Notes: generated from the letters alone by a model not told the origin. A stretch of DNA of 46,107 bases from Dehalococcoidia bacterium (GCA_022450395.1 JAKUQE010000024.1:1-46107); one strand, 5' to 3'. Shown: positions 2,641 through 23,157, counted from the first letter of the stretch. Numbers and translations: made by a program.

Positions 2641-2669
2641 AAAGGCGATTCCTATCCTCAATCCGGCGC

Positions 2670-2698
2670 TTGCCCTGACCGGCGTTGGGTGCTACTGT
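2670..2698 (+). promoter_or_regulatory. candidate extended -10 promoter for aldehyde dehydrogenase
   Basis: TTGCCC at 2670-2675, a 17-base spacer, then TACTGT at 2693-2698 preceded by TG-C, which makes an extended -10. The start codon is 53 bases downstream. The hexamers are weak. Confidence 0.35.
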
Positions 2699-2750
2699 AC
2701 CCGCAAACCGGATACCTCTTGACGAGGATTTTAGCGTTCAAGGAGCCGGA

Positions 2751-4247: not shown

Positions 4248-4279
4248 CGCCGTCTCAATAGGTCAAACTGATGAATTAA

Positions 4280-4306
4280 TAAGGGTGGGTTTCAAACCCG
4301 CCCTTA
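4280..4306. repeat. imperfect palindrome, candidate terminator
   Basis: Two 12-base arms (4281-4292 and 4294-4305) pair around a single C with one G-T type mismatch. It starts 32 bases after the aldehyde dehydrogenase stop. There is no long T-tract, so it may be a dispersed intergenic palindrome rather than a classical terminator. Confidence 0.6.
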
Positions 4307-4358
4307 CGTTCGTCCAGATCAGTTTCCGTGTTTCCAGAACTCTTGTTGTCCCGGAATG

Positions 4359-4388
4359 CGTAGGGGCACGGCTAGCCGTGCCCCTACG
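4359..4388. repeat. 30-base perfect palindrome between convergent genes
   Basis: A perfect inverted repeat with no loop, with centre ACGGCTAGCCGT and GGGGC/GCCCC arms. It sits between the ends of the aldehyde dehydrogenase and the Asp-box protein. As RNA it forms a strong hairpin on either strand, so it could terminate both genes. It also looks like a dispersed repeat unit. Confidence 0.7.
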
Positions 4389-4414
4389 TCGGGATAGATG
4401 TCTGATTAATCGTC

Positions 4415-5398
4415 CTAGTTCGGCATCACCGCCACGGAGCGGATCTCGCCGAACTCCTTCTTCAATTTGGTCCAGTTCTCCCCGCCGTCGGTGCTGGTGT
4501 ATACGTAGCCGTAGAGGCTGGCGGCGGCGATCACGTTGGGTACTGCTTTATTGGTGCCGAACCAGTACACCACCGAGTTGGGCGCTACCGGCAGGTCAAT
4601 GCTTTCCCAGGTTTTGCCGGCGTTCTTGGTGTGCTGGATGGTGCCGGTGATTCCGGGTATGGCGTCGCCGTTACCCACGAACATAACATCGGGGTCGTCC
4701 GCCTTGATCAGCACTCCCCGGCAATAGGACCGGTTGTCCTTCTCGTTGAACTTGGGGAAATAGTGGTAATCCCAGCTTTCCCCTTCGTCGGTGCTGGTGG
4801 CGATACCGAAGGGGCTGGTGCAGTAGATCGACGTCGTCGGTCCGGGACTGATTGCCATGCCGTGGATGTCCCCGTGGAACGGATCGGGACCCAGTTCAGG
4901 AAGATGCACCCAGGTATCGCCGCCGTCCAGGCTCTTGTACACGCCATCGACCTCTATGCCCGCCCAGATGGTGCGGTTGTCCCGAGGGTCGACGATCACG
5001 TTGGTGGTCCGGGGGATGCCCACTGGGCAGGGAATGGTTACGCCCAGGCTCAACTCGTCCCAAGTCTTGCCTCCATCCCGGGAGCGGAACGCGTCAGGCC
5101 GGGTGCCGGCGAAAATAGTGTCCGGGTCGGTGGGGTCCACCGTCACCGACCAAATCTGGCGGTCTTCCATCGGCGAGTTCAACTTCTCCCAGGTGCCCGC
5201 ATTGTCCTCGCTGCGGAAGATGCCCTGGTCGGTTCCAGCCAGAATGCGGTGGGGGTCGTCCGGATACACGGACAGTGCCCTGATGTTGGACTCGGAAGGT
5301 ATGGGGTCGCGGATGCGGTCCCAGGTTTCTCCACCGTCCACGGTGCGCGACAGCCCGCCGCCAACGGTTGCTACGACAAGAGTAAATCCTTCTGCCAT
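4415..5398 (-). CDS. Asp-box (BNR) β-propeller protein
   Basis: A 327-residue protein with seven Asp-box motifs of the form S/T-x-D-x-G-x-T/S-W, for example SRDGGKTW, SLDGGDTW and STDGGENW. These mark the blades of a sialidase/VPS10-like or YCF48-like propeller. No signal peptide or sialidase catalytic arginines or tyrosine are evident, so enzymatic activity is not claimed. The ATG at 5398 is preceded by AGGAGG with a seven-base spacer. It appears to be a single-gene unit. Such propellers recur in this window (PQQ-type, NHL-type and PD40 repeats). Confidence 0.8.
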   Translation of the reverse strand: MAEGFTLVVATVGGGLSRTVDGGETWDRIRDPIPSESNIRALSVYPDDPHRILAGTDQGIFRSEDNAGTWEKLNSPMEDRQIWSVTVDPTDPDTIFAGTRPDAFRSRDGGKTWDELSLGVTIPCPVGIPRTTNVIVDPRDNRTIWAGIEVDGVYKSLDGGDTWVHLPELGPDPFHGDIHGMAISPGPTTSIYCTSPFGIATSTDEGESWDYHYFPKFNEKDNRSYCRGVLIKADDPDVMFVGNGDAIPGITGTIQHTKNAGKTWESIDLPVAPNSVVYWFGTNKAVPNVIAAASLYGYVYTSTDGGENWTKLKKEFGEIRSVAVMPN

Positions 5399-5510
5399 GG
5401 CTGAGCCTCCTTAAGGGTGGAATTTAGCCTGCCTGAAGTATGGAGACATAATAGCCCGACTGATGGGGAAATGCTACCAGGGGTAGGTTAAATCATTGGG
5501 ATTGCCGCCT

Positions 5511-5909
5511 CTACAACGGCTGGCGGTCGCCGAATCCCGTGTCGGTATCGTGCCAGAAGCCGATGGCCAGCTCGCCACGTACCCAACACAGGTAAACCTC
5601 TCGGCCCTCGCGGTAGGACGGAAAGTCCACCAGCCAGCGGCCCACATCTCGAACAATGATTCCTCGCTGGGTGATTTCCCGCACCACCCTTTGCAATTGT
5701 TGGGTGAGGCGGTCCACCTTGCGTTGCAACTCCGCCACCTCCGTGCCGTGGCTGGAGGCCCCGTTCTCCCGGCCGCCCCGCAACATAACCAATAGCCGCT
5801 CCTGTTCCTGGACCAGCTCCTCCCTCACCGGCATCACCGCCGAGAAAGTTTCCGCTAACCATGGCAACATGGCGTTGGCTTCATCTAGAGTAAAGTGGCG
5901 TGGCGTCAT
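5511..5909 (-). CDS. DUF2203 family protein
   Basis: A 132-residue protein with the usual DUF2203 layout. The N-terminus is FTLDEANAMLPWL, followed by a long charged helix likely to be coiled coil (residues about 25-80). The C-terminal block contains GRWLVDFPSYREGREVYLCW and GFWHDTDTGFGDRQPL. Function is unknown. The start ATG at 5909 has GGAG five bases upstream. It is divergent from trmI across about 194 bases. Confidence 0.85.
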   Translation of the reverse strand: MTPRHFTLDEANAMLPWLAETFSAVMPVREELVQEQERLLVMLRGGRENGASSHGTEVAELQRKVDRLTQQLQRVVREITQRGIIVRDVGRWLVDFPSYREGREVYLCWVRGELAIGFWHDTDTGFGDRQPL

Positions 5910-6103
5910 ATCATCTCCAACTTTACCCTAGCTTGGGTACCTTCGCCAAGGCTGTCAAAAGCATAGGTGCGATCCGCTACGGTCTGGAAAGATTCCTCAC
6001 GATCAGCCAAATGGCGTACAATAACCGGCAACGTAACCGCTTGCCGCGTGGAAGTGTCAGGATCCCGGCAAGGACACCCTAAATCAGTCACAGGATTGGA
6101 TAT

Positions 6104-6985
6104 TTGACCGTCGATAGAAATTGCTTTCAGGAAGGCGACCTAGCGCTACTTCAGGACCGAAAAGGCCGCCGCCATCTGCTAACACTCCTGGACGGAGGAG
6201 TTTTCCACAGCCACCAAGGCCGCTTGGACCATGAGCGGTTGATCGGCCACAGCGTTGGCGGCTGGTACCGGACGGACCGGGGCCACGTGCTATTGGCGGT
6301 GCGGCCCACACTGGGAGACTTTGTGCGCCAGATGCCCCGGGGACCGCAGATAATCTATCCGAAAGACCTGGGCCTTATCATCATGCTGGCTGACATTTTT
6401 CCCGGAGCCACTGTGATTGAAGGTGGCCTTGGCTCCGGCTCTCTCACCTCCGCACTGCTGCGAGCTGTGGGCGTCAATGGCCGGGTGATCAACTATGAGA
6501 TCGAAGAGTCATGGTTGCCCAAAGCCAGGGCTAACATCCAAAAGGTTGTGGGCGACGCGTCTAATCTGGAGATCAAGATTGGCGATATCTACGAGGGGAT
6601 CAGCGAGCGCAACATAGACCGGGTTGTCTTGGACGTTCCCGAACCCTGGCAGGCGGTGTCCACCGTGGGTGACTGCCTGTTGATGGGGGGAATCTTACTC
6701 AGTTTCTTGCCCACGGTGATTCAGGTTCAGAAGTTGGTATTGGCGCTGGAGGCGGACACCAGATTCCAAATGATCGAAACAACGGAAACACTCTTGCGCA
6801 CCTGGCACGTCACCGAGCGTAGCGTGCGCCCGGACCATCGGATGGTGGCCCACAGTGGATTCTTGATCACTGCCGTAAGGTGCCAACCCCGTGTGATCGG
6901 CACCCCATCTGACCCGTCGGTCGAACCACCGGCTGAAACCGTTGCTGGTAACGAGGAAGACGAGGCTGATGGACGTGATGAATAG
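6104..6985 (+). CDS. trmI: tRNA (adenine-58-N1)-methyltransferase, TrmI family
   Basis: A 293-residue SAM-dependent methyltransferase that forms m1A58 (and in some archaea A57) in the tRNA T-loop. The N-terminal β-domain (about 1-75) is followed by the Rossmann domain, with motif I in VIEGGLGSGS at residues 104-113 and LDVPEPWQA containing the catalytic-site aspartate. QIIYPKDLG precedes motif I, as is typical of the family. The start is TTG with a GGA-rich stretch just upstream; no better ATG is present. The last about 25 residues are acidic and low complexity. Its 3' end overlaps by 17 bases the ATG of a truncated HD-gene copy, suggesting an ancestral trmI-HD operon. Confidence 0.88.
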   Translation: MTVDRNCFQEGDLALLQDRKGRRHLLTLLDGGVFHSHQGRLDHERLIGHSVGGWYRTDRGHVLLAVRPTLGDFVRQMPRGPQIIYPKDLGLIIMLADIFPGATVIEGGLGSGSLTSALLRAVGVNGRVINYEIEESWLPKARANIQKVVGDASNLEIKIGDIYEGISERNIDRVVLDVPEPWQAVSTVGDCLLMGGILLSFLPTVIQVQKLVLALEADTRFQMIETTETLLRTWHVTERSVRPDHRMVAHSGFLITAVRCQPRVIGTPSDPSVEPPAETVAGNEEDEADGRDE

Positions 6986-7073
6986 AGACGAGACCCTGGA
7001 ATTTTTGAGCTACCACGTTAAGACAAATATGCTGATGAAGCACATCATCAGGTCCATTTCACGCCATGCCTAA
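6969..7073 (+). pseudogene. truncated 5' copy of the downstream HD-domain gene
   Basis: A 34-codon remnant starting at the ATG inside the trmI 3' end. Its first 25 residues match the start of the intact HD gene at 8765 with 19 identities (shared cores TLEFLS, HVKT and MLMKH). In DNA, 63 of 75 bases match between 6969-7043 and 8765-8839. Similarity ends abruptly after the MKH codons, and the frame closes at TAA 7071, just inside the amidohydrolase gene. It is best read as the scar of an insertion or recombination event. Confidence 0.8.
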
Positions 7074-8493
7074 ACGGGTCAGGATCAACGCCAAGATTAT
7101 CGTCGCCTTTCAAGGGAATGGGCATCACGTTCTCAGGAATGGGTGCGTAATCATAGACGGTAGTGACATACAGCACGTCGGGAAAGATTACGACGGGTCT
7201 GTTGATGCTGTCATCGATGCGGGCGACCGTGTGGTCACACCAGGATTCATCAACACCCACTGTCACATGGCAGGCTCTCCCCTGGACAAGTCCTTCATCG
7301 AAGATGTTGGGAGCCGCCAGTTCTACCTTTCGGGTTTACCCACCATGCTCAAAGCCAGAGGCGGCGCGATGACCGATACAGACCGGCGGGCCTGCGTCGA
7401 CTACTCCGCGGCCGAGCTTATCCAGACTGGCACGACAACCGTGATGGAGTTGGGTGGCATCGGAGATTATGTTGCCGATGCTATTGAGCAGGCTGGATTA
7501 AGAGCCTACATAGCTGACATGTACAGCTCGGCTAGCTGGGTTTCAATCAATTGCAAGCAGGTCGGCTATGAATGGGACGAGGCATTGGGGATAGAAGGCT
7601 TCAGGAAGGCGGTCAAGCTGATCGAACGGATCGACGGACGAGCCAATGGCCGCATCAGAGGATTCATCAGCCCGGCCCAGATAGACAACTGCACCGAGGA
7701 GCTTCTCCGCATGAGCAGTCAGGCATCGGAGGAGATGCAGGTTCCTCTGGCTCTCCACACGAGCCAGGCGGTATTTGAGTTTCAAGAGATCGTCAGACGA
7801 CACGGTTTGACGCCAGTTGAGTGGTTGGAGTCGATCGATTTCCTGAGCGATAGGTGCGTTCTTGGTCACGTCATCTATCCAGCCGGCCACAGCTGGGTCA
7901 ACTTCGCGGGCGATGACCTGGCGATTCTTGCGAAACACCAGGCTTCTGTCGCCCATGCGACGTGGGTGTTTAACCGTCGTGGGGTCGCGATGGAGTCTTT
8001 CCCCGCCTATCTGGGCGCCGGTGTGAACGTGTGCCTTGCTACAGACACCTGTCCCCAGTCCATGATCGAAGCCATGCGATGGTCTGCGGTCGTAGGCAAG
8101 ATAATGATTCGTCAGACCGAACTATCCACTGCGGCCGACGCATTCAACGCCGCCACGCTCAATGCGGCGAAGATGCTGCACCGAGATGACTTGGGCCGCA
8201 TCTCGATGGGAGCGAAAGCTGACCTTCTGTTTTGGGATACAAACTCGACGTTCATGGTTCCTCTACGAGACCCCATCAAGAACATTGTCTACAACGCAAC
8301 CGCCGAAGACTTAAGAGACGTGATGATCGATGGCGAGTGGGTTATGCGGGATGGACAGGTTCTCAAAGTCGATGAACGTGCGGTCAGCAGGAAGCTGCAG
8401 CAGGCCGGCGAAAGAGTGTGGTCTTCGGTTGACGCAAACAACGCTGAGAGTATGGATGAACTGTCACCTCAGACCTTTCCGGACTTTGAATAG
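7066..8493 (+). CDS. amidohydrolase, TRZ/ATZ/cytosine-deaminase-like
   Basis: A 475-residue metal-dependent hydrolase of the amidohydrolase superfamily, subgroup of chlorohydrolases, guanine deaminase and related deaminases. The N-terminal composite β-domain carries the metal motif H65-x-H67 in GFINTHCHMAG. Further ligands are likely in LALHTSQ, LGHVIYPAGHS and CLATDTCPQS (the last gives the metal aspartate). The C-terminal β-domain ends the family fold with GAKADLLFWD. Substrate is unknown; an amino-heterocycle or N-substituted compound is plausible. The ATG at 7066 has only a weak AGG upstream. It sits between a truncated and an intact HD gene, so it was probably inserted there. Confidence 0.85.
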   Translation: MPKRVRINAKIIVAFQGNGHHVLRNGCVIIDGSDIQHVGKDYDGSVDAVIDAGDRVVTPGFINTHCHMAGSPLDKSFIEDVGSRQFYLSGLPTMLKARGGAMTDTDRRACVDYSAAELIQTGTTTVMELGGIGDYVADAIEQAGLRAYIADMYSSASWVSINCKQVGYEWDEALGIEGFRKAVKLIERIDGRANGRIRGFISPAQIDNCTEELLRMSSQASEEMQVPLALHTSQAVFEFQEIVRRHGLTPVEWLESIDFLSDRCVLGHVIYPAGHSWVNFAGDDLAILAKHQASVAHATWVFNRRGVAMESFPAYLGAGVNVCLATDTCPQSMIEAMRWSAVVGKIMIRQTELSTAADAFNAATLNAAKMLHRDDLGRISMGAKADLLFWDTNSTFMVPLRDPIKNIVYNATAEDLRDVMIDGEWVMRDGQVLKVDERAVSRKLQQAGERVWSSVDANNAESMDELSPQTFPDFE

Positions 8494-8527
8494 GAATAGA
8501 TGATGCGGCGCGACGATTTTAAGATAT

Positions 8528-8724
8528 ATGAACCTAGCTGATCTAAGTCGGCACCTGTCCGCTTATGGCGGCTTCACCATCTACATTCACGGGTCCGAAC
8601 TGCCGACCGGCTTGTTTTGAGTGCATTATCCCTGTTGGATGAATTCCCGGCCATCTCCAGCGAAACGGGCATGCGGTCTCTGATGGCGCGGGTGCTGTCC
8701 CGGCGGGAGATACTTAAGGCGTAG
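8528..8724 (+). pseudogene. frameshifted small coding remnant
   Basis: Two short adjacent reading frames appear to form one broken gene. The first runs from ATG 8528 to TGA 8618-8620 (30 codons, start MNLADLSRHLSAYGG). The second continues one frame over to TAG 8722-8724 with a protein-like sequence including LSLLDEFPAISSETG and VLSRREILKA. I do not recognise the family. It lies between the inserted amidohydrolase and the intact HD gene, consistent with debris of the same rearrangement. No other gene is seen in the 268 bases here. Confidence 0.4.
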
Positions 8725-8761
8725 TAACCCGCCGTAGAGGGGCGATAAACTGGAGGAAATT

Positions 8762-9343
8762 ATGATGGAAGTGATGAGTCGAGAGCAGACCCTGGAATTC
8801 TTGAGCCACCATGTTAAAACGGAGATGCTGATGAAGCACCTCTTTTCCGTGGAGGCGTCCATGCGGGGATACGCCCGCAAGTTCCAGGAGGATGAAGACC
8901 GCTGGGCAATCGCCGGGCTGCTCCACGATTTCGACTGGGAGATATGCCCCACCCCCGAGGACCATCCCAATTTCGGCGCTGAGATTCTGCGTGAACACGG
9001 CTACCCGGACGACATCATCCGGGCAGTCCTAACCCACGGCGACCACACGGGCATCCCCAGGGAATCGTTGATGGAGCATACTTTGTTTGCTGTCGACGAG
9101 CTGTCCGGCTTTATCCGGGCCGTGGCTCTGGTTCGTCCCTCCAAGAGCCTGGGCGACGTATCCCCCCGTTCCGTCCGCCGCAAGATGCGCGACAAAAACT
9201 TCGCCAAGGACGTAAGCCGCGATGATATCGCGCGCGGGGCCGAAGAGCTTGGCATCGATCTGGACGAGCACATTGCCTTCATCGTCGAAAGCATGAAGCC
9301 CGTAGCCCAGCAGATCGACCTAGTAGCCGAACCCACAGAGTAA
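8762..9343 (+). CDS. HD-domain phosphohydrolase family protein
   Basis: A 193-residue protein with an HD fold. His26 comes first, then the paired His55-Asp56 in GLLHDFDWE, His68 in EDHPN, and H-G-D-H at residues about 92-95. These are the usual metal ligands of HD hydrolases. The substrate is unknown; related stand-alone HD proteins are often annotated only as HD superfamily hydrolases. GGAGG at 8752-8756 lies five bases before ATG 8762, and a second ATG follows directly. A truncated paralogue of its 5' end lies at 6969, next to trmI, where an orthologue may originally have stood. Confidence 0.85.
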   Translation: MMEVMSREQTLEFLSHHVKTEMLMKHLFSVEASMRGYARKFQEDEDRWAIAGLLHDFDWEICPTPEDHPNFGAEILREHGYPDDIIRAVLTHGDHTGIPRESLMEHTLFAVDELSGFIRAVALVRPSKSLGDVSPRSVRRKMRDKNFAKDVSRDDIARGAEELGIDLDEHIAFIVESMKPVAQQIDLVAEPTE

Positions 9344-9356
9344 CCAGTCATTCTGG

Positions 9357-9452
9357 CCGATCCCCTCCTTACGAAGGAGGGGATATAGGGGAGGTCGTTC
9401 CCGGGGAGATCACGACCCCCTGTGGTCCCCCCTTTGCGAAGGGGGGACATAG
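9357..9452. repeat. GC-rich palindromic intergenic repeat, two hairpins
   Basis: Two C-run/G-run inverted repeats, CCCCTCCTTACGAAGGAGGGG and CCCCCCTTTGCGAAGGGGGG in shortened form, separated by a spacer. The unit resembles those at 18002, 32470 and 39218. It lies after the HD gene and before the opposing propeller gene, so it may also terminate transcription. Confidence 0.65.
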
Positions 9453-9470
9453 CCGCCGAAGGTGGTTGGC

Positions 9471-9596
9471 TTACTCCAGCGCGTACAGATGCCCGTCATC
9501 GCTGCCGGCGTAGACCACACCTTCATGTACCACCGGGGACCCAAACACCCTATCCGCGGTCTTGAACCGCCAGATCTCCTCCCCGCTCTCGGCGTC
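9471..9596 (-). pseudogene. out-of-frame C-terminal blade of the PQQ-type propeller gene
   Basis: In the frame shifted by one base from the gene above, the minus strand encodes the missing final blade: AESGEEIWRFKTADRVFGS followed by GVVYAGSDDGHLYALE and TAA at 9471-9473. Removing the single T at 9597 restores the family repeat HLYAVDAESGEEIW. This marks a one-base insertion in the genome or in the assembly. Confidence 0.8.
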
Positions 9597-10797
9597 TAAC
9601 CGCATATAGATGCCGGTCGTGGCTCCCCATGAATACCACGCCGTTGGCCACTGCCGGCGAGGATTTTATCTTTTTTCCGGTCGCGAATCGCCACTTCTCC
9701 TGCCCGGTGGCGATGTCCACGGCATACAGGTTTCCGTCATGGCTTCCAGAGTAGAGCACACCGTTAGCGATCGCCGGGGAGGAGTGAACGGGCCCGCTCG
9801 TTAGGAACCGCCACTTCTCCTGGCCGGTGGCTGCGTCTACCGCGTAGATGTACCAATCGAAACTCCCAAAATAGACGGCTCCACCGGATAAAGCCGGGGT
9901 GGAAGATACCCAATCACCTGCTTCGAACCGCCAGTTTTCCTCTCCGGTTGCCAGGTCGATAGAGTAGAGATTACCGTCATCGCTGCCGATGTAAAGCGCC
10001 CCATCGGCTAAAGCTGGAGACGACCACACCTTGCCGCCCGTCTGGAATCTCCAGATCTCCGTCCCGGTATCCGCGTCGACCGCATAGATGTTCTCGTCCC
10101 AGCTCCCGAAGTAGACCGTCCCGCCGGCGATAGCCGGCGAAGATAATATGGCGCTGCCAGCCTGGAACTTCCACTTCTCCTCACCCGTCTCCGTGTCCAA
10201 AGCGTACAGGTGGTTGGCCACTGTCCCGAAAAATACCGTACCATCGGCCACGGCCGCTGATGACTGGATCGGGCCCGGAGGCATAGTTTCGTCGGGGCGA
10301 GCTAGGAAACGCCACTTCTGTACACCGGTCTCCAGATCTACCGCATACAGATAATTGTCGTCGCTGCCCACGAAGGCGACTCCTCCGGCAATGGCCGGCG
10401 AGGTCTGGATCTTTCCCAGCGCGTAGACAGCGTAACGGCGCAGCTCCGGTGGCACTTCAGCGCCTTCAGCCATGAATTTCCACTTTAGGCGATTCCCCGG
10501 CGCCACACCTCCGGCGTCGTAGAATCCGGTGCGGGCCAGACTGCCTCGAAAGATAGCGTCTGGCGGCTCGCCTAGCGGGATAAGTGTGGGTGTTGGCGAG
10601 GGGAGCGTGGCGGTGGCTTCGAGAGTTGCAGGCGGTGGAGTCTCAGCGACTATCTGCGAGGTGGGCGCCGGCGCCTCTGTGGGCTGAGTGGTTGGAACTG
10701 GTGTGGGCAAAGGCGTATTGGTTGCCACGGGACCGGCGCAGCCAAGCAGGAGCGCCAAGAAAAGGCCGCCGTTTACCCGGCGCCACCCATCGATCAC
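9550..10797 (-). CDS. PQQ-like β-propeller lipoprotein (BamB-like fold)
   Basis: The open frame gives 415 residues. An N-terminal signal ends in the lipobox LLLGC, so it is probably an exported lipoprotein. A Pro/Thr-rich linker (about residues 25-75) leads to a propeller of PQQ-type repeats with W-motifs such as GVQKWRFLA, TEIWRFQTG, QEKWRFLTS and QEKWRFATG. Seven W-motifs are in frame and an eighth lies out of frame downstream. The last about 17 residues of the open frame (after HLYAV) are frameshift product. The start is GTG at 10797, overlapping the upstream methyltransferase stop as GTGA, which suggests translational coupling. PQQ-type repeats do not by themselves show cofactor binding or enzyme activity. 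Confidence 0.85.
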   Translation of the reverse strand: MIDGWRRVNGGLFLALLLGCAGPVATNTPLPTPVPTTQPTEAPAPTSQIVAETPPPATLEATATLPSPTPTLIPLGEPPDAIFRGSLARTGFYDAGGVAPGNRLKWKFMAEGAEVPPELRRYAVYALGKIQTSPAIAGGVAFVGSDDNYLYAVDLETGVQKWRFLARPDETMPPGPIQSSAAVADGTVFFGTVANHLYALDTETGEEKWKFQAGSAILSSPAIAGGTVYFGSWDENIYAVDADTGTEIWRFQTGGKVWSSPALADGALYIGSDDGNLYSIDLATGEENWRFEAGDWVSSTPALSGGAVYFGSFDWYIYAVDAATGQEKWRFLTSGPVHSSPAIANGVLYSGSHDGNLYAVDIATGQEKWRFATGKKIKSSPAVANGVVFMGSHDRHLYAVRRRERGGDLAVQDRG

Positions 10798-14912: not shown

Positions 14913-16625
14913 TCAGCTTCGCCCAAGTTCAAGCATCAAGCCGTGGGTCAGAGCTGACGGGTCGCTTACGGTGTGCACAGGCCGCCCTCCGGTCTGTATC
15001 TCGATTTTGGCCGATGGCACTTCCTGATCTTCCCGGAACTGTAATACCAGGTCTCCCGAGTTCAGTTGGGTGAGAGCGGCCTGGGCCATCTCTATCACCG
15101 ATGGGTCTCCCGGCGTCCCGACCACCGTGGCGATGACAGGTAAGGACAGTAACCGGGCCAAGGAATGTCCGAACCCGGCGGCAAAAGCTCCGTAGTTTCG
15201 ATGGGCGTTGGGGAAGCTTTTCAATGCCCACACCGCTTGTTCCCGGTGTGCCTCTTTGCCCGTCAAGTCAGCCAACTTGACGAAGAAAGCCGCCAGCCGG
15301 GCATTCTGAGCCAGTACCTTCATGGGCCGGCTTAGACTTGCCGGGCCGGATATGCTGATGTCGTGGAATCCCCCTTCCGGGTCCCGGTGCCGCTGGGTGA
15401 TGCTCTCCGCCAACGACTCGGCTCGCCGCAAGTAGGTGTCTTCATGGAGCGTGGAGTAGGCGTGCAGCAAGGCTAAGCCGGTTTCCGTGGCATCCCCCAA
15501 CAGTCCGGGCACTAGGGCCTTGCCGTCCCAATAATGGTGCATGGCGCCGTCGGGGCCACGCAGTGTCTCCCACAGCAGGTCCAGCACTTCCCTCGCCCGT
15601 TCCCGGCACCCTTCCAATCCCAAGATCCACCAGGCATCGAGATAGGCCGCCACCGCCCGGGCGTTGGCGTCGCAGTAGAGATATTCGTCGATGACCGACA
15701 GCATTGCGGACGATGATGAGTCACGATCCTCTCGAACGTAATCCTGGCACCCTTGAAAGAGGCCGGCTTGCCCCTTTGACAGGGTGGTATCCAGGTATTC
15801 AACCAGCCCTATAGCTGTTTCCCGGTGAGACGGATCTTGGGTCAGAAGAAAGGCGCGCAAGTGGTTGCTCAGGAGGGCCGCTTGGTCGTCCAGCAGCTTT
15901 TCCGGATGGGGCTCGCTCCAATCCGCCTTGGAGGAGTACCGGTAAAATCCACCGCCTTCGGCATCGAAGGTCTTGCTGCCGCGCATCTTGTCTAGGGTGA
16001 TTCTAACGTGATCCAGGTGAGAAGACTCGCCGCTGGTCTCGTAAAGGTACATGAGGAAATCATTGGCTTCGGGATGCAAGAATTTGAACTGGGCGCCGTA
16101 GCCGCCGTTAACCTTATCGGCCAGGCCCTCCACCATGCCGGCGATTTCGGCTACGATGGCCGGACCCAAGGGCGCCCGATCGTTGTCCGCAGCGCTATCG
16201 TCATCGGCACTTGCCTGAGCGTCTGCGGGCTCGACGATGGCTTCCCCCTGTTGGTGCAGCGTTACCACTTTGACCAGCAGGTTGATAAAAGGCTCGGGTT
16301 CCATGAAGTTGACGCTGAATAGGTGGCTGCCGTCGGGAGACATAAAGATGACAGTAGGCCAGCCGTCTTGGTTATAACGTAGGTCCACGTCGGGGCGCTG
16401 GGATTCCTCCACGCGGATGGGAATGAAGAAGGCGTTCAGCAAGGAGATGGTGTCGTCTTCCGACAGGGATGTCTCGTCCATCCGCTGGCAGAACCCGCAC
16501 CAGAAGGCAGCGAGAAAGACCATCACCGGCTTGTTCTGGCCCTTGGCCTCTTGGAACGCCTCCGGTCCCCACTCCCGCCAATCGATCAGGTGCGCCTGGT
16601 TGGTGCGAACTGAGAACCGGAACAT
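14913..16625 (-). CDS. DUF255 thioredoxin-fold protein (YyaL/SPATA20-like)
   Basis: A 570-residue protein. Its N-terminal thioredoxin-like domain (about 1-120) has the pair Cys43/Cys46 in FWCGFCQRMDE, followed by an RPDVDLRYNQDGWPTV segment typical of the family. The rest resembles the six-hairpin helical toroid of YyaL-type proteins. Family members usually have CHWCH and about 680 residues, so this one is short and has an altered motif. The ATG has GGAGG eight bases upstream. It begins 23 bases after the selenoprotein gene and is the last gene of the operon. A role in supplying reducing equivalents to the selenoprotein is an inference from context only. Confidence 0.82.
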   Translation of the reverse strand: MFRFSVRTNQAHLIDWREWGPEAFQEAKGQNKPVMVFLAAFWCGFCQRMDETSLSEDDTISLLNAFFIPIRVEESQRPDVDLRYNQDGWPTVIFMSPDGSHLFSVNFMEPEPFINLLVKVVTLHQQGEAIVEPADAQASADDDSAADNDRAPLGPAIVAEIAGMVEGLADKVNGGYGAQFKFLHPEANDFLMYLYETSGESSHLDHVRITLDKMRGSKTFDAEGGGFYRYSSKADWSEPHPEKLLDDQAALLSNHLRAFLLTQDPSHRETAIGLVEYLDTTLSKGQAGLFQGCQDYVREDRDSSSSAMLSVIDEYLYCDANARAVAAYLDAWWILGLEGCRERAREVLDLLWETLRGPDGAMHHYWDGKALVPGLLGDATETGLALLHAYSTLHEDTYLRRAESLAESITQRHRDPEGGFHDISISGPASLSRPMKVLAQNARLAAFFVKLADLTGKEAHREQAVWALKSFPNAHRNYGAFAAGFGHSLARLLSLPVIATVVGTPGDPSVIEMAQAALTQLNSGDLVLQFREDQEVPSAKIEIQTGGRPVHTVSDPSALTHGLMLELGRS

Positions 16626-16648
16626 ATCAGGCCTCCCCAGGCCGGCCT

Positions 16649-17935
16649 TTACCGGCCCGGGGCCTCGCTCTTCAAGGCTTCAAGGGCTTGGAGGACGGTT
16701 TTCCGCCGGAGTTCTTTTTCCTCATCGGGAGGAAGATCAGCGGCACCCAAAGGGTGGACGATGCCGGTGCCCTGGACGATGCGGTTGGAGCCAACCATCT
16801 TGGCAATGGGAACCACCGAGGTTACCTGGCAAACGGGGATACCCGCTTTTTCCAACTCGGTCGCGATCGCAGCGCCGCTGCGAGTGCTGGTCCCTCAAGC
16901 CGAGGTAAGGATCACCGCGTCCACCCCCGAATCTTTCAGCTTCTGCGCGATCTCCTGTCCCAAACGGCGGCTGTTGGCCAGTGGGTTGGCCAAACCGGAG
17001 GTGGATATGAACTGGTCGTGGAGCTTGCCAACGACGCCCTCACTCTCCAATTCCCGCATTACGTCCACCGGAACCATCCGGTCCGGGTCTTGGCGCACGT
17101 AGCGTGTGTCGTAGCCCCGGTGGGCCACCTCATAGTCCTCACCCTTCAGGTCATTTTTCTTGGATATGTCGTAGCTTCCCCAGGTAGTTGCCGCGGTATG
17201 GGCTATGTTGTCCGGGTTGCCTTGAGGCACCACCCCTCCGTCGGTGACGATGGCCACGCGGGCCTTAGAGATGTCAATGACCGGAGGCGGGGCCGGTACT
17301 GATGGGAAGGTGGTTACTGTCAGTTCGGACTGGAATGCGGCGCCCTGGGTCTTGGCGTACAGCATCTCTACCATGCGTTCGGCCGCCGACTTTTCCACGA
17401 AGCCGTCCCGTAGGATGCCGCGAGGAATGTAGCCGTCATCGGTGGGCGCTCCCATCTCCTGACCCACCGACAACTTAGCGGCGATAGCGGCCATCTTGCT
17501 CAACGTGGCTTCCATCGCCGACACGCTTTCGCCCGAATCCACGATGTATAGTTTTTGGCGGTACAGGTCCACTCCGGGGTTCTCCACCGCCATTCCCGTG
17601 ACCGCCGGAATACCGATCTCAGCGCTTACGTCCACGCACAACGCACCGGCCGCCGCTCCGTAACGGCCCGCTTCGAAACACGGTCCGGCTACAAACAGGT
17701 CGGCTTTGCAGGCGGCAACTTCCTTCAGTACAAATTCCTTCAGTACATCGGGATTTTCGGCGGCGAAGTTGTCCCCGCAGATCACCGTCTTTACGACCTG
17801 CGAGTCCTGGCCCAGCACCCGCTCCAGCAAGCGTCCCGGCCCCACCGCGCCGTCCCGTACCTCGGGCGGAGCACTCGCAAACTCTTCACCGCCCAGTCCC
17901 CCGAAAAATTGGTTCAAGTAATGTACTACCCTCAT
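16649..17935 (-). CDS. GrdB-like reductase with in-frame UGA (selenocysteine)
   Basis: A 428-codon gene if the UGA at 16895-16897 (codon 347) is read as selenocysteine. The protein matches glycine/sarcosine/betaine reductase component B γ-subunit throughout. It begins VVHYLNQFFGGLGGEE, with middle elements IPAVTGMAVENPG, ALVT-like VAIVTDGGVVPQGNPD and YDTRYVRQDPDR. VDAVILTSA precedes the UGA, then GTSTRSGAA and VGSNRIVQGTGIVHPLG follow in the same frame up to TAA. GrdB has selenocysteine at exactly this place. A hairpin starting 11 bases after the UGA fits bacterial SECIS rules. The second gene-family partner GrdE-like lies upstream across 154 bases. The substrate is unknown. Confidence 0.88.
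16867..16897 (-). promoter_or_regulatory. UGA codon plus SECIS-like hairpin
   Basis: Read on the minus strand, UGA (16897-16895) is followed by 11 bases and then a perfect seven-base stem, UCGCAGC/GCUGCGA, closing the loop GGC (16876-16874). The loop begins with G and lies 18 bases from the UGA. Both fit the published bacterial SECIS consensus (apical loop 16-37 bases downstream, G at its start). Confidence 0.72.
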
Positions 17936-18001
17936 TGGTTAGACCTCACTTGGCACTGGATTCTGGTTCTTTTCGTGGAAATTTATGTTTCCGTAGGACT
18001 T

Positions 18002-18083
18002 CCCCCTATCCTAACCTTCCCCCACAAGGGGGGAAGGGATCTGTTCTCTCCCCCTTACGAAGGGGGAGAGTTAGAGAGGGGGT
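18002..18083. repeat. palindromic repeat inside the GrdE-GrdB gap
   Basis: Two C/G-run hairpins, CCTTCCCCC...GGGGGGAAGG and CTCTCCCCC...GGGGGAGAG, with the outer words ATCCTAACC and GAGTTAGAGAGGGGG. The same layout recurs at 32470-32551 and, degraded, at 38251 and 39218. Here it separates two operon genes. Confidence 0.75.
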
Positions 18084-18089
18084 CGTCCT

Positions 18090-19352
18090 TTAATAAACAA
18101 AACACCGCAACTTGGAGATCCCTTGTTGGCTGGTTACGCCGCAGATTCCTCCGGCGGGTATCCCCTGGGCCACTTCAAGAGCGGCGGTCATGGCCGGGTT
18201 TCCGGCGACTACCTTCTCCACCGCCGGGAGGTCCCAACTCGTGTCGCCGCCGCCCACGTAGACGATGGCATCAACTTCCGGATAGTTAAACAAGAGCGCG
18301 GACTCGGCCTGCCGGTCCCGGGACATGTCCGATACTTGGACGGTGGTGAAGATCCCGGACTGTTCGCAAAGGCGGGCCGTCAACGCCATGTCGGCGTGGG
18401 GCGCTCCTCCGCCGTACTTTGTGAGAACCACGCCATCGGCGGCCAGGTTCCACTTGGCCATCTCCGAGGCGAGCATGCAGTTGCGCTCCCGGTCTTCATT
18501 GTCGGAAGCGGCCATGGTAGCGATGGTACCCACTAGAGTAAGCTTCCCCTCCCGGTGCCATCGGTAAAGCTCATTGATGATTGGGTGGTTCTGGTAGAAA
18601 TAGGTCTCCACGCCCATGTTTTGGTAACCGGACACCACTCCCCCGTCCAGCCATTCGTTGGGGTGCAACATCACCGGCACCATTCCGGCGGTATTGGCGC
18701 CGTAGAGTATCTGCTCGTCCACCTCGGCAACCCGCTGCCTGGAGTGTATCTGTCCGATGTAGGCCACGCGGGGCAATCCGTCTCTTCCCGCCTGAATTGG
18801 TCCATCAGACTGGAAGACTTCCGTTGCGTTGGGCGATTGGTCCAAGGCCGTTTTGGCCAGAAATACCGACGTTTTCACCGACGCCAGACGTAGCGTGTTC
18901 TGGGCGATGTGCCTCTCCAGGTTTGGATCAGTGTGAGGCACGACGGCCAGATGGTGCAGCACCGAGTAGGGAGACGCTTCGCTGGCCGGCCCGCTCATCT
19001 CCACGATCTTATTGTTTGCCAAAGGCGCCGCTTCATCGACGACAGTCACCGCGGCACCCCTCAAGACGTGGGTCGTGCCTTGGCCCGCCGTGGCGATGGG
19101 GCCTAGAATGCCCGGGTAATCCGAGCCTGCCCCCGGCTCTTTGATCCGAGGCTCGATGATGTCGAACACAACGCCGATGCGGCAAGCCTCGCCGGGATTG
19201 GCGATGTCCATGTCCACGCTCTGCAGGCGGGGGTCTTCCAGCAGGTGATTCGTCAGGCTCTCCCGGTCGACGACCAAAGTAGAACCATCTAGGTAGGTCG
19301 AGTCACCGAATCGCAAGTCGTTAACTTGATGTATCGCCAGAGTCAGTTCCAA
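18090..19352 (-). CDS. GrdE-like component B subunit lacking the pyruvoyl cysteine
   Basis: A 420-residue homologue of GrdE, the proprotein subunit of glycine-reductase component B. Shared features include the N-terminus with RFGDSTYLDG, RIGVVFDIIEPRIKEPG, GQGTTHVLRGAAVTV, and VMLHPNEWLDGGVVSG. In classical GrdE a Cys just after the last motif is cleaved and converted to a pyruvoyl group that binds the amino substrate. Here the following residues are Tyr243-Gln244 and no Cys is nearby. Cys residues occur only elsewhere (GEACRIG, ERNCMLA, RLCEQ, GGICG, KLRCF). The alignment is from memory of the family. The TTG start at 19352 has GAGGG upstream. It is third in the operon. Confidence 0.82.
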   Translation of the reverse strand: MELTLAIHQVNDLRFGDSTYLDGSTLVVDRESLTNHLLEDPRLQSVDMDIANPGEACRIGVVFDIIEPRIKEPGAGSDYPGILGPIATAGQGTTHVLRGAAVTVVDEAAPLANNKIVEMSGPASEASPYSVLHHLAVVPHTDPNLERHIAQNTLRLASVKTSVFLAKTALDQSPNATEVFQSDGPIQAGRDGLPRVAYIGQIHSRQRVAEVDEQILYGANTAGMVPVMLHPNEWLDGGVVSGYQNMGVETYFYQNHPIINELYRWHREGKLTLVGTIATMAASDNEDRERNCMLASEMAKWNLAADGVVLTKYGGGAPHADMALTARLCEQSGIFTTVQVSDMSRDRQAESALLFNYPEVDAIVYVGGGDTSWDLPAVEKVVAGNPAMTAALEVAQGIPAGGICGVTSQQGISKLRCFVY

Positions 19353-19370
19353 AACCTTGGCCCTCTTGGC

Positions 19371-19988
19371 TTACCAGCCCAGATTTTCTTTGATCAGGAT
19401 AACACGAACCCGGTCGTCGGCCACTTCATTCTCGAAGATAGTAAGCTTGCCCATGGGCCTGGCGTTGCGGCCCTGCGCCACCAGCCATTCGTCGTGTTTG
19501 CCTACCGTGTACCCTCGAACGCGGTCGATGGCATCGGTCAGGGTGGGGCATATCTTCTGAGTACCGGCAACCAGGATCACGTATTTGGCCCCGTAGACGA
19601 ACGCGCCCAGTTGGCTGCCCGACCCGCTGGCCACCACGATCTCGCCCGTTTCAGCGATGGCCTGAACGCTGCCGATGATGTATTCCGAAACCGTGGCCAA
19701 CCGCCGAAGGTCACGTTGTTTCGCGGGGTCGGTTTCCGCGATGACTTCGTCGTGCAGGTTGCGATAGCGGGGGTTATTGTGCAGGTAGTCCGAGTAGCCG
19801 ATGGAATCCAGGGTTTCGGAGGTACTGTTGAATACCTCCGCGCCATCAGGGACCATGTCCTTGAGAAGTTGCAGGGCTTGCTCGCTAGTCTCGGCTACCA
19901 CCGCCGGCATATTCCGGGCAGACAGAGCCTGCACCGTTCGCTGAATGGCCGCGTCATCGACCATCCGAGTGGATTCGCCGACCGGCAT
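19371..19988 (-). CDS. LUD-domain (LutC-like) protein
   Basis: A 205-residue LUD-domain protein. Family signatures visible are EVFNSTSETLDSIGY, YIIGSVQAIAETGEIVVASG, and SQLGAFVYGAKYVILVAGTQKI. LutC-type proteins act with LutA and LutB in lactate oxidation, but stand-alone LUD proteins are common and mostly uncharacterised. LutA and LutB are absent here. I use ATG 19988, which lies five bases after the FAH gene stop; an in-frame ATG at 20057 would overlap that gene. Followed 18 bases later by the GrdE-like gene, so cotranscription is very likely. Confidence 0.85.
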   Translation of the reverse strand: MPVGESTRMVDDAAIQRTVQALSARNMPAVVAETSEQALQLLKDMVPDGAEVFNSTSETLDSIGYSDYLHNNPRYRNLHDEVIAETDPAKQRDLRRLATVSEYIIGSVQAIAETGEIVVASGSGSQLGAFVYGAKYVILVAGTQKICPTLTDAIDRVRGYTVGKHDEWLVAQGRNARPMGKLTIFENEVADDRVRVILIKENLGW

Positions 19989-19993
19989 GGCGG

Positions 19994-20902
19994 CTAACCC
20001 CGGGGAGCCCGGCCCAGTACCCGCTCCGCCATCTCCTTGTCGATTCCCCGAGGCCACTCCCGGTGGGACGGATCGCTGATGCGGATGATCAAGGACGGCC
20101 CTAGTTCTTTGATCTCCATGCGGATAACGTCTCCATCCTGAACCGCTCCGATCTGCTGGTGGTTCACGCCGGTGGCGATGACGTCACCGGGCTCTAGGGT
20201 TGTGATCTTGGAGAACTCGGAGATCAGCTCGGGGATCTTGTGGGCCATGTCGCTGGTGGGGAAGTCGTGGCGGGCCTCGCCGTTGTTCCACAGCCGGATC
20301 TGAAGATCGTGGGGGTCGGGAATCTCATCGGCGGTAACCAGCGCCGGCCCCATGGGCGCGAAGGTGTCCCAGCATTTGCCCAAGAAGAAGCTGTTCCCCA
20401 CCGCTCCCGGCAGCCCCCTAGCCGACATGTCCAGGAAATTGCAGTAACCGAATATGTGGGACATCGCGTCTTCCTGGCTGACTTTGGTGGCGGTCTTGCC
20501 GATGACCAGGGCCAACTCGGGTTCGTGATGGAATACCGTTGCCGGGGCTGGAGGCAATTCGCAGGTGTCTCCGGTGCCTATCACAGCGTTGGGGGCTTTG
20601 AGGAAAGCGTCCAGGATCGCCGGTTCCCTCATGCCGAACTCCAGGTAGTTGACGGCGGCGCAGATCAACTTGCCTGGACGGGGCACGGGGGCGCGTAGCC
20701 GCACGCTCTCCAAGGACACGCCGTCTTTGTTGTGGATCGCCGATTCAATCTTCGGTTTTTGCTCGTCCCATCTGGTGATGAGTTCTTCCATCATGTCCTG
20801 GGGGCGGCGAAACTCACGGCCCTCGAATGAATCCGTTGCGTCCACGATCTGGCCGTCGCGAATCACGCCCAGACGAAACTCGTTAAAAAACGCTAATTTC
20901 AT
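19994..20902 (-). CDS. fumarylacetoacetate hydrolase (FAH) family protein
   Basis: A 302-residue FAH-superfamily enzyme. Metal ligands are seen in HHEPELALVIG (Glu-x-Glu) and FLDMSAR (Asp). PGDVIATGVNHQ corresponds to the usual GDVI-TGT turn. The N-terminal segment FNEFRLGVIRDGQIVD is the small lid-like domain. Members hydrolyse C-C bonds of acylpyruvates or hydrate/decarboxylate aromatic meta-cleavage products; the substrate here is unknown. ATG 20902 is favoured over the ATG two codons upstream because AGGAGG then has an eight-base spacer. First gene of the five-gene operon with LUD, GrdE-like, GrdB-like and DUF255 genes. Confidence 0.9.
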   Translation of the reverse strand: MKLAFFNEFRLGVIRDGQIVDATDSFEGREFRRPQDMMEELITRWDEQKPKIESAIHNKDGVSLESVRLRAPVPRPGKLICAAVNYLEFGMREPAILDAFLKAPNAVIGTGDTCELPPAPATVFHHEPELALVIGKTATKVSQEDAMSHIFGYCNFLDMSARGLPGAVGNSFFLGKCWDTFAPMGPALVTADEIPDPHDLQIRLWNNGEARHDFPTSDMAHKIPELISEFSKITTLEPGDVIATGVNHQQIGAVQDGDVIRMEIKELGPSLIIRISDPSHREWPRGIDKEMAERVLGRAPRG

Positions 20903-20985: not shown

Positions 20986-21014
20986 AGTGTAGCACACGGG
21001 CTAACCGCCATCAA
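20986..21014 (-). promoter_or_regulatory. promoter of the selenoprotein operon
   Basis: On the minus strand TTGATG (21014-21009), a 17-base spacer and TACACT (20991-20986) preceded by TG-C form a good extended -10 promoter. Transcription would begin near 20979, leaving a leader of about 75 bases before ATG 20902. Confidence 0.6.
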
Positions 21015-21177
21015 CAAGCCGCGCCTCGTCATTCCAGCGCCGGCCGGGACCCATGGTATTTCGCGTCCTCTGCATGCCCGGATACCAGCGCCCGCCACCG
21101 TGACGATCTGGTTTCCCCAGATACTGGCCGTGGAGATTGATGCACCAGCCTTGGGCTAGGCTGGCCTTACCGCATGC

Positions 21178-21183
21178 TACAAT
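21178..21183 (+). promoter_or_regulatory. extended -10 box for flavin oxidoreductase
   Basis: TGCTACAAT with TACAAT at 21178-21183, 45 bases before the ATG at 21228. No strong -35 hexamer is seen at normal spacing. The same word occurs before the TIG-domain gene (42777) and a variant before the selenoprotein operon. Confidence 0.5.
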
Positions 21184-21227
21184 ACGCCTCGACTGGCTCA
21201 GCAGGCTGGCATGAGAGAGGATGTCCA

Positions 21228-22250
21228 ATGGACTTCGGCATATTTACAATGTTCAGTGCGCGGGAGACCTCGACGCAACACGAGATATTCCACGAGTGGT
21301 TCGACGTCGTCCAGATCGCAGAGGAATCGGGAATCGATACCTTCTGGCTGGGCGAGTCCCACTTCAGGCCCCACCGGGCGATGCTGGCCTCGCCTCTCAT
21401 CGGCGCCAGCGCAGTGGCCTCCCGCACCCAGCGCATGCGGGTAGGCTTGGCGGTTCAAGTACTGCCCTTGGCAAACCCGCTAAGGGTAGCTGAGGAGGCT
21501 GCCATCGTCGACCACATAAGCGAAGGCCGCTTGATCTTCGGTGTGGGCCGGAGCTCTTTTATTGAGTCCTACAACGGATATAACGTGGACTATGGCGAGA
21601 GCAGGGCGCGATTCATGGAGTCGCTGGAGGTGATCCAAAGGGCGTGGCGCAATGAGGTATTCTCCTACCACGGAGAGTTTTACGACTTCGAGAACGTAAA
21701 TCTGGTGCCCAAACCCTATCAGACGCCCCACCCGCCCATTCGAGTGGCCGTGGAAAGCAGGGACACGTTTTCCCTGGTGGGTGACATGGGATTTCCCATA
21801 TTCATCCGACACCAAATGGATGTCTCAGAACTTCAAGACCTCTTGGGGGAATATGAGGAAAAGCGTCACAACGCAGGGTTTGACGGTCCCAACGACGTGA
21901 TCCTGCAGCTTGCCTGCTATGTGGCAGACACTGCGGAGGAGGCTCTCCATGAACCGGAAGCCAGCACCATGCGGCAGAGGCGGCTGGTCGCCGAGTCCCT
22001 GAACACCGCCGCCGACGAGGAAGCCTACGAGCGGCTAAAGAAAATATCCGAAACGACTTATGAAGACGTGCTCACCAGAGTCATTTACGGCACACCTGAA
22101 ATGGTGGTGGAGCGCCTGCACCAGTACCAAGAAGACCTGGGCATCACCGGCGTGTCGCTAGACGTAAATCCCGGCGGCCAAATCCCCTACGACCGCGTGG
22201 TCAATTCCATGCGCCTACTCACCGAAAAGGTTATGCCCCAGTTCAAGTAA
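21228..22250 (+). CDS. LLM-class flavin-dependent oxidoreductase
   Basis: A 340-residue bacterial-luciferase-like (β/α)8 barrel protein that would use FMN or F420. Features are the start MDFGIFTMF, the block EESGIDTFWLGESHF, RMRVGLAVQVLPLANPLRVAEE, and GRLIFGVGRSSF, all typical of the family. EFYDFENVNLVPKPYQTPHPP is the conserved middle segment. Known relatives include alkanesulfonate and long-chain alkane monooxygenases; the substrate here cannot be inferred. The ATG has a GAGAGAGG site seven bases upstream. It is divergent from the selenoprotein operon. Confidence 0.9.
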   Translation: MDFGIFTMFSARETSTQHEIFHEWFDVVQIAEESGIDTFWLGESHFRPHRAMLASPLIGASAVASRTQRMRVGLAVQVLPLANPLRVAEEAAIVDHISEGRLIFGVGRSSFIESYNGYNVDYGESRARFMESLEVIQRAWRNEVFSYHGEFYDFENVNLVPKPYQTPHPPIRVAVESRDTFSLVGDMGFPIFIRHQMDVSELQDLLGEYEEKRHNAGFDGPNDVILQLACYVADTAEEALHEPEASTMRQRRLVAESLNTAADEEAYERLKKISETTYEDVLTRVIYGTPEMVVERLHQYQEDLGITGVSLDVNPGGQIPYDRVVNSMRLLTEKVMPQFK

Positions 22251-22368: not shown

Positions 22369-22458
22369 GGAGGGATGGCCGAGCGGACGAAGGCGGCGGT
22401 CTTGAAAACCGCTATACGGGCAACTGTATCGTGGGTTCGAATCCCACTCCCTCCGCCA
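22369..22458 (+). tRNA. tRNA-Ser (UGA anticodon)
   Basis: A 90-base class II tRNA with a long variable arm. The acceptor stem GGAGGGA pairs with TCCCTCC, followed by discriminator G and an encoded CCA. The anticodon loop CTTGAAA gives anticodon TGA (reads UCA). The T arm GTGGG-TTCGAAT-CCCAC is intact. It is not tRNA-Sec, which has anticodon TCA. The 3' end faces the integrase remnant, a common insertion site. Confidence 0.97.
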
Positions 22459-22539
22459 GTTTTGAAGCTAAATTGTGACTTGTATAGGGTCTAACACCCT
22501 ACGCACTGCGGGTCCACATTTCATAAATGCCGACATTTG

Positions 22540-23157
22540 TCAGGATTCCTCGACCGCTTGTTGCTTCGTAGTTTTACGAAGCCCTTCTTCAAACTTGAGC
22601 GCCGCCTCTTCCTGCAACCCCGGTAGGACGTGTGAGTAAGTGTCCAGGGTGATTACCACGCTGGAATGGCCCAGGCGCTCGGCTACGGTCTTTGGGTTGA
22701 CGCCCTGTGCCATCATCATGGTGGCGTGAGTGTGCCGTAAGTCGTGTAGTCGGATATGGGGTAGCCCAGCTTTCTTAATTACCTCAGCGAATGCCAGGCT
22801 AACCTTATCGGGCGAGTAGGGCCTACCGTCAGCCAGGCAAAACACGTAATCTGATTCCTGCCACTCCAGGCCTAGGAATTGGCGTTGCTCCTTTTGCTTG
22901 ACCTTTAACCCATTGAGCAGCGCAGCGGCAGCGGCTGGTAGATTGATAAGCCGACGTGACTTGGCCGTTTTGGGTTGGAGAGTCATCATCCCCTTACCAA
23001 GAATCCGCTGGAGGGTTTCCACTACCGAAACAGTCTTAGCATCAAGGTCTACTGCGGTCCACCGCAGACCCAAAAGCTCACTGCGCCGCATCCCCGTATA
23101 TAAGGCCAAGAAGAACACAGGACCATATCGAGTCGCGGCAGCGGTTGCCAAGAACAA
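22540..23157 (-). pseudogene. tyrosine recombinase catalytic domain, N-terminus lost
   Basis: About 205 residues corresponding to the C-terminal catalytic half of a phage-type integrase. The active-site residues are present: Arg in TGMRRSELL, Lys in QPKTAKSRR, His-x-x-Arg in HDLRHTHA, His in LGHSSV, and Tyr in TLDTYSHV. The N-terminal SAM-like core-binding and arm domains are absent. Upstream sequence instead belongs to a nucleosidase gene in another frame. It ends 82 bases from tRNA-Ser. It is best read as the remnant of an integrated element; activity is unlikely. Confidence 0.85.

Follow-up and report, generated by a model that had tools for sequence, protein, structure and literature searches.

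A pyruvoyl-free clade of GrdE-GrdB selenoproteins and its linked DUF255 subfamily in Dehalococcoidia and other bacteria

We analyzed a 46,107-nucleotide stretch of DNA from a Dehalococcoidia bacterium (GCA_022450395.1, JAKUQE010000024.1; here called the window), which is one contig of a 4.0-Mb metagenome-assembled genome (MAG) that is 79% complete and whose relatives are SAR202/Dehalococcoidia MAGs. At positions 14913 to 20902 it carries genes for a FAH-family enzyme, a LUD-domain protein, a GrdE-like protein, a GrdB-like selenoprotein, and a DUF255 protein. What is conserved and new here is not this five-gene set; it is a clade of GrdE-GrdB pairs that lack the pyruvoyl site, a DUF255 subfamily that belongs to it, and a context without GrdD. 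On sequence evidence, we lean slightly toward the view that the pair is a protein B specific for a substrate of the form X-CH2-COO- in which X is not an amine, and that it feeds GrdA and GrdC in trans, with the DUF255 protein as the likely reductant. The first-pass annotation had described five minus-strand genes with gaps of 5, 18, 154, and 23 bases and an in-frame TGA, and both the coordinates and the Pfam names agree with this layout:

19994-20902, minus strand: FAH-family enzyme (PF01557, 168 bits)
19371-19988, minus strand: LUD-domain protein (PF02589, 98 bits)
18090-19352, minus strand: GrdE-like partner, 420 amino acids, TTG start (PF09338, 274 bits)
16649-17935, minus strand: GrdB-like selenoprotein, 428 amino acids, selenocysteine (Sec) at residue 347 (PF07355, 442 bits; TIGR01918, 484 bits)
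16895-16897, minus strand: UGA selenocysteine codon, GrdB codon 347 (conserved in 86/86 motif-found GrdB sites)
16868-16882, minus strand: hairpin of the selenocysteine insertion sequence (SECIS) type, 6 bp, GGC loop, 12 nucleotides past the UGA (paired in 70/70 distinct sequences)
14913-16625, minus strand: DUF255 protein (PF03190, 80 bits)

By comparative sequence evidence well above chance, the TGA of grdB is a genuine Sec codon. Among the GrdB sites collected by motif from the fetched loci, all 86 have TGA at this position, and 70 of them are distinct over 48 nucleotides. The hairpin that follows has 6 bp and a GGN loop; its pairing holds in all 70, and two of its pairs show compensatory changes, alternating among CG, UA, and AU. 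In 20 representatives, 17 cells were altered on both sides, versus 6.0 in shuffles and none in slid versions; where one arm changes from serine (AGC) to cysteine (TGC), the opposite arm shows a synonymous alanine codon change (GCT/GCA) to match. The same genome encodes tRNA-Sec (66 bits) and SelB (353 bits, above the cutoff). A stop codon that truncates grdB, or a decayed pseudogene, has nothing to recommend it other than the in-frame TGA itself and is ruled out, with next to no residual probability, by the conserved UGA and SECIS hairpin; moreover, in all relatives the protein similarity extends through the TGA as far as the C terminus, and the Sec machinery is present.

We scanned 84,980 species genomes and obtained 74 loci. 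In a GrdB tree made by a quick method, with the Shimodaira-Hasegawa-like approximate likelihood ratio test (SH-aLRT) as its only support measure, the window protein falls within a 32-row clade (support 100) that comprises Chloroflexota, Binatota/"Deltaproteobacteria," and one Nitrospinota MAG. Its family membership is clear (TIGR01918, 484 versus a cutoff of 65 bits; PF07355, 442 versus 22 bits), with the active-site Sec conserved, yet it stays under the cutoffs for glycine reductase (TIGR01917, 448 versus 602 bits), sarcosine reductase GrdF (NF040794, 488 versus 800 bits), and betaine reductase GrdH (NF040795, 432 versus 775 bits). The GrdB model of AlphaFold (predicted local distance difference test [pLDDT] score of 90) places Sec347 between a strand (residues 340 to 344) and a helix (348 to 363), and the N-terminal end of a helix that follows a strand is a common site for a nucleophile; a structure search with GrdB returned no solved relative. 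In alignments, the window GrdE reads SGYQNMG where GrdG has SGNCVAPC, and the Asn-Cys pyruvoyl-processing site is gone. This site is missing from GrdE across the clade and kept in Bacillota glycine reductase, Synergistota, and GrdG. Likewise, clade GrdB proteins carry UGTSTRSG in place of UGTCTRCG, that is, the cysteine pair after Sec is lost. The published glycine (GrdB) and sarcosine (GrdF) motifs (PMC9751293) are absent from the window protein and occur in none of the 32 clade members. Because the pyruvoyl site is missing and these motifs are not matched, the clade probably acts on a substrate other than the amines glycine and sarcosine. The earlier idea of a selenium-dependent reductase of the GrdE/GrdB type for another substrate thus stands as to type and is probable as to substrate. 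At one locus (L251, G133:C65, positions 3570 to 3705), the GrdE frame enters unrelated sequence near a contig end, probably through an assembly misjoin.

Glycine reductases of Dehalococcoidia are already known (PMC9751293), and the window system resembles glycine, sarcosine, and betaine reductases in its Sec-GrdB/GrdE-like pair, in the GrdA selenoprotein and GrdC encoded in the genome, and in the SECIS hairpin after the Sec codon. Unlike them, it comes without a detected GrdD, pyruvoyl site, or post-Sec cysteine pair, is linked to DUF255, and lies under all substrate-specific cutoffs. Losses of this kind have precedents: betaine reductase GrdI is reported to lack the pyruvoyl feature, and the fluoroacetate-induced FarEB of Cloacibacillus reportedly has neither the pyruvoyl cysteines nor a CxxC after Sec (PMC10838667). 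Our alignment likewise shows no pyruvoyl cysteine in GrdI. The window pair shares both losses with the fluoroacetate reductase, but its operon holds neither a FarA-type transporter nor a FarC-type radical-SAM protein, and its score with the FarE model (NF053623) is 170 bits against a cutoff of 675. D-proline reductase PrdAB is a distant relative by profile, although the model P0001 gives 99 bits, below its cutoff of 300.

DUF255 proteins range from bacteria to humans (SPATA20), and we know of no established function for the family. The window protein combines a thioredoxin-like N-terminal domain (WCGFCQRMD) with an (alpha/alpha)6-type barrel, exceeds the PF03190 gathering score (80 versus 27 bits), and has Brucella 7tkv as its closest solved structure. 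This architecture is shared with other DUF255/Thioredox_DsbH proteins (YyaL, SPATA20, and 7tkv), which, however, carry WC-x-WC-type motifs such as WCHWCHVMD, whereas the window protein reads WC-x-x-C-QRMD. Twenty genomes searched for the family have one to four DUF255 genes each. A tree of 34 DUF255 proteins places those with WC-x-x-C-QRMD in one subclade (100/100). All 16 members adjoin GrdE or GrdB, the CxxC is invariant among them, and in 10 of the 10 carriers among the 20 genomes the gene lies beside GrdE or GrdB. None of the other DUF255 paralogs in the tree falls into this subclade, which differs from the rest of the family in being always beside GrdE/GrdB where tested. For two genomes (G554 and G133), the DUF255 protein was placed in the subclade before its linkage to GrdE/GrdB was found. 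The gene follows grdB in Chloroflexota (L117 to L120, L186, and the window) and lies upstream of grdE in Binatota, Nitrospinota, and similar loci, and this difference in order between phyla argues for selection on the linkage. The proposal that the thioredoxin-fold protein belongs with GrdE-GrdB is therefore borne out, in the form of a dedicated subfamily. Searches of open papers on Grd proteins and on DUF255 returned no report of the link, although the two terms were not searched together and subscription journals were not covered. A DUF255 subfamily tied to selenoproteins across phyla makes a function of this family directly testable; should it prove to donate electrons, no earlier biochemical role is known to us for any DUF255 member.

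The genome also encodes two further Grd components, both on contig C35 (strands not given):

C35:49880-51331: GrdC (650 bits versus an equivalog cutoff of 450)
C35:51473-51913: GrdA, a selenoprotein (179.5 bits versus an equivalog cutoff of 130)

The cysteine of GrdC is conserved. The absence of GrdA and GrdC noted in the first-pass annotation is therefore true for the locus only, as both are encoded on another contig, so that the annotation's own counter-case, a glycine-reductase cluster elsewhere in the genome that uses this B component, largely applies. The absence of GrdD extends further: protein and NCBIfam model searches of the genome and 11 relatives gave a best hit of 27 bits (PlsX-like) against a cutoff of 350, while a positive control for the model reached 552 bits. 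Among the fetched loci, GrdD was seen only in Bacillota. Given the grdC-grdA pairs of many other phyla, among them Rokubacteria, Actinomycetota, and Planctomycetes (L145 to L181), with GrdD not in the fetched stretch, GrdD-less Grd loci may be widespread.

Three Sec-GrdB/GrdE pairs occur in the genome: that of the window, one on C293, and one on C35 adjoining GrdC and GrdA. In the closest Dehalococcoidia relatives (66 to 70% GrdB identity), most have grdC-grdA divergent from an adjoining grdE-grdB, and three carry DUF255 as well. The genes for GrdE, GrdB, GrdA, GrdC, and DUF255 are all present at L118 to L120. The C293 pair (L020, positions 1642 to 9755) belongs to the same clade and lies beside fumarate-reductase-like and fumarase-like genes (names given by eye) and cupin-like and isochorismatase genes; this block reappears in the same-genus genome G559 (L140, L245), with the frd/fum genes 89 to 96% identical. 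On C35, a fragment between GrdA and GrdE (L019, positions 8778 to 8894) matches the last 39 residues of GrdA at 69% and is apparently a decayed second grdA. Short proteins on C323, C28, and C184 (L022, L023, and L024), each in a different context, match the C-terminal part of GrdB only, and the matching stretch contains no Sec codon.

In the reading that we favor, Sec347 of GrdB would attack the alpha carbon of X-CH2-COO- and expel X. As GrdE has no pyruvoyl-forming site, no Schiff base would form through a pyruvoyl group, and X would likely be a leaving group that needs no such activation, as in betaine and fluoroacetate, and not the amine that glycine and sarcosine carry. Next, the selenoprotein GrdA would receive the carboxymethyl group, which would move on to GrdC. 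Since GrdD was not found, the acetyl on the GrdC cysteine would probably be released by another route, perhaps to coenzyme A (CoA); the missing GrdD thus poses the question of how acetyl leaves. The DUF255 protein, by its own thioredoxin CxxC, is likely the reductant dedicated to this system and would reset GrdA or GrdB. It is tempting to speculate, although we regard this wider proposal as doubtful, that Chloroflexota, Binatota, and related groups share a GrdD-independent pathway in which a pyruvoyl-free Sec-GrdEB acts on non-amine X-CH2-COO-, DUF255 donates electrons, and GrdA/GrdC give acetyl-CoA and not acetyl phosphate. The clade brings selenium-dependent reductive cleavage, probably of a new substrate, into groups with oxygen-using catabolic neighbor genes.

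Several observations weigh against the favored reading. The window genome is an incomplete MAG. At several Binatota loci, grdA/grdC were not seen within 10 kb, in a search confined to the loci. Some half of the clade GrdB proteins, including that of the C293 pair, have no adjoining DUF255, which therefore is not essential for the whole clade. Finally, the DUF255 barrel resembles N-acylglucosamine 2-epimerases, and the model of the thioredoxin domain has low confidence and was not used. An alternative is a different role for DUF255 within the same Grd system, namely, maturation or repair, or action on a sugar-like substrate, in place of electron donation. Both the epimerase-like barrel and the clade members without DUF255 would fit such a role, which we nevertheless consider rather unlikely given that the CxxC is invariant in the linked subfamily and that a canonical grd operon has trxB and a thioredoxin gene.

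It is unlikely, and a little more so, that the window encodes the protein B of a conventional betaine (or glycine/sarcosine) reductase, with FAH, LUD, and DUF255 as incidental neighbors. Membership in TIGR01918, the equally pyruvoyl-free GrdI, and the presence of GrdA and GrdC agree with an ordinary reductase; against this, the protein scores far under the GrdB, GrdF, and GrdH cutoffs and sits in a separate, supported clade, no BCCT-type transporter was recognized alongside, unlike in annotated grdH and grdGF loci, and the DUF255 linkage is too consistent for chance. A self-contained new reductase independent of GrdA/GrdC, with the FAH enzyme acting on the product as first suggested, seems less probable again: grdA/grdC are missing from the window locus and from several Binatota loci, and FAH genes lie near GrdEB at a few other loci, but GrdA and GrdC are encoded in the same genome and adjoin the pair in close relatives, and FAH-LUD is separable from GrdEB.

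This separability bears on how the operon as a whole is to be read. The FAH protein matches maleylpyruvate hydrolase 6jvv over nearly its full length, and its E-x-E ... D metal site is apparently intact. The order FAH-LUD-GrdE-GrdB-DUF255 was seen in the window and in one other species, G554 (MAG B28T3L11), where one contig holds FAH, LUD, GrdE, and GrdB at 84, 65, 73, and 71% identity. A second contig, which we infer to be its neighbor, has at its edge the GrdB C terminus with Sec and DUF255, followed by citrate-synthase-like and methyltransferase-like genes as in the window. Full GrdB relatives occur in 10 of 50 family genomes, and a LUD ortholog in 24 relatives, mostly without GrdEB alongside. 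FAH-LUD occurs without adjoining GrdEB in four genomes (G553, where an aldolase-like gene is next, G566, G575, and G576), while G559 has neither a window-type LUD nor a window-type GrdEB. We therefore rejected the five-gene operon as a conserved unit, as well as LUD as a general Grd partner (homologs of about 40% in the class stand alone). Contrary to the original view, which counted FAH and LUD among the core, the two look like a separable, optional, lineage-specific addition, a catabolic pair that may act on the precursor. At L133, L136, L137, L162, and L173, a possible association of FAH with GrdEB is suggestive. Luciferase-like, Rieske-like, isochorismatase, CoA-transferase, MetE-like, and isocitrate lyase/phosphoenolpyruvate-mutase-like genes recur as neighbors inconsistently, and a number of them belong to families with many members in genomes of this kind, so we name no substrate from them.

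Two further features of the region are as follows:

17960-18080, strand not given: C/G-rich, palindrome-like GrdE/GrdB spacer (read from sequence)
21174-22250, plus strand: divergent luciferase-like flavin oxidoreductase (name given by eye; open reading frame and synteny, same position in G554)

The single good promoter previously placed at 20986-21014 could not be upheld: TTGATG-17-TACACT matches at 8 of 12 positions, and a scan with a threshold of 9/12 finds nothing there. Inside the GrdE/GrdB spacer, a terminator-like stem lies on the plus strand (18015-18037), although such sites are no commoner in the region than expected by chance; a repeat search of the window listed none for the spacer. 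In G554, the corresponding spacer holds another, dissimilar repeat-like sequence (L183, 4390-4560). Beside the operon, at 22369-23157 of the window, a tRNA-Ser (tga) is followed by a tyrosine-recombinase-like fragment, a possible old integration site.

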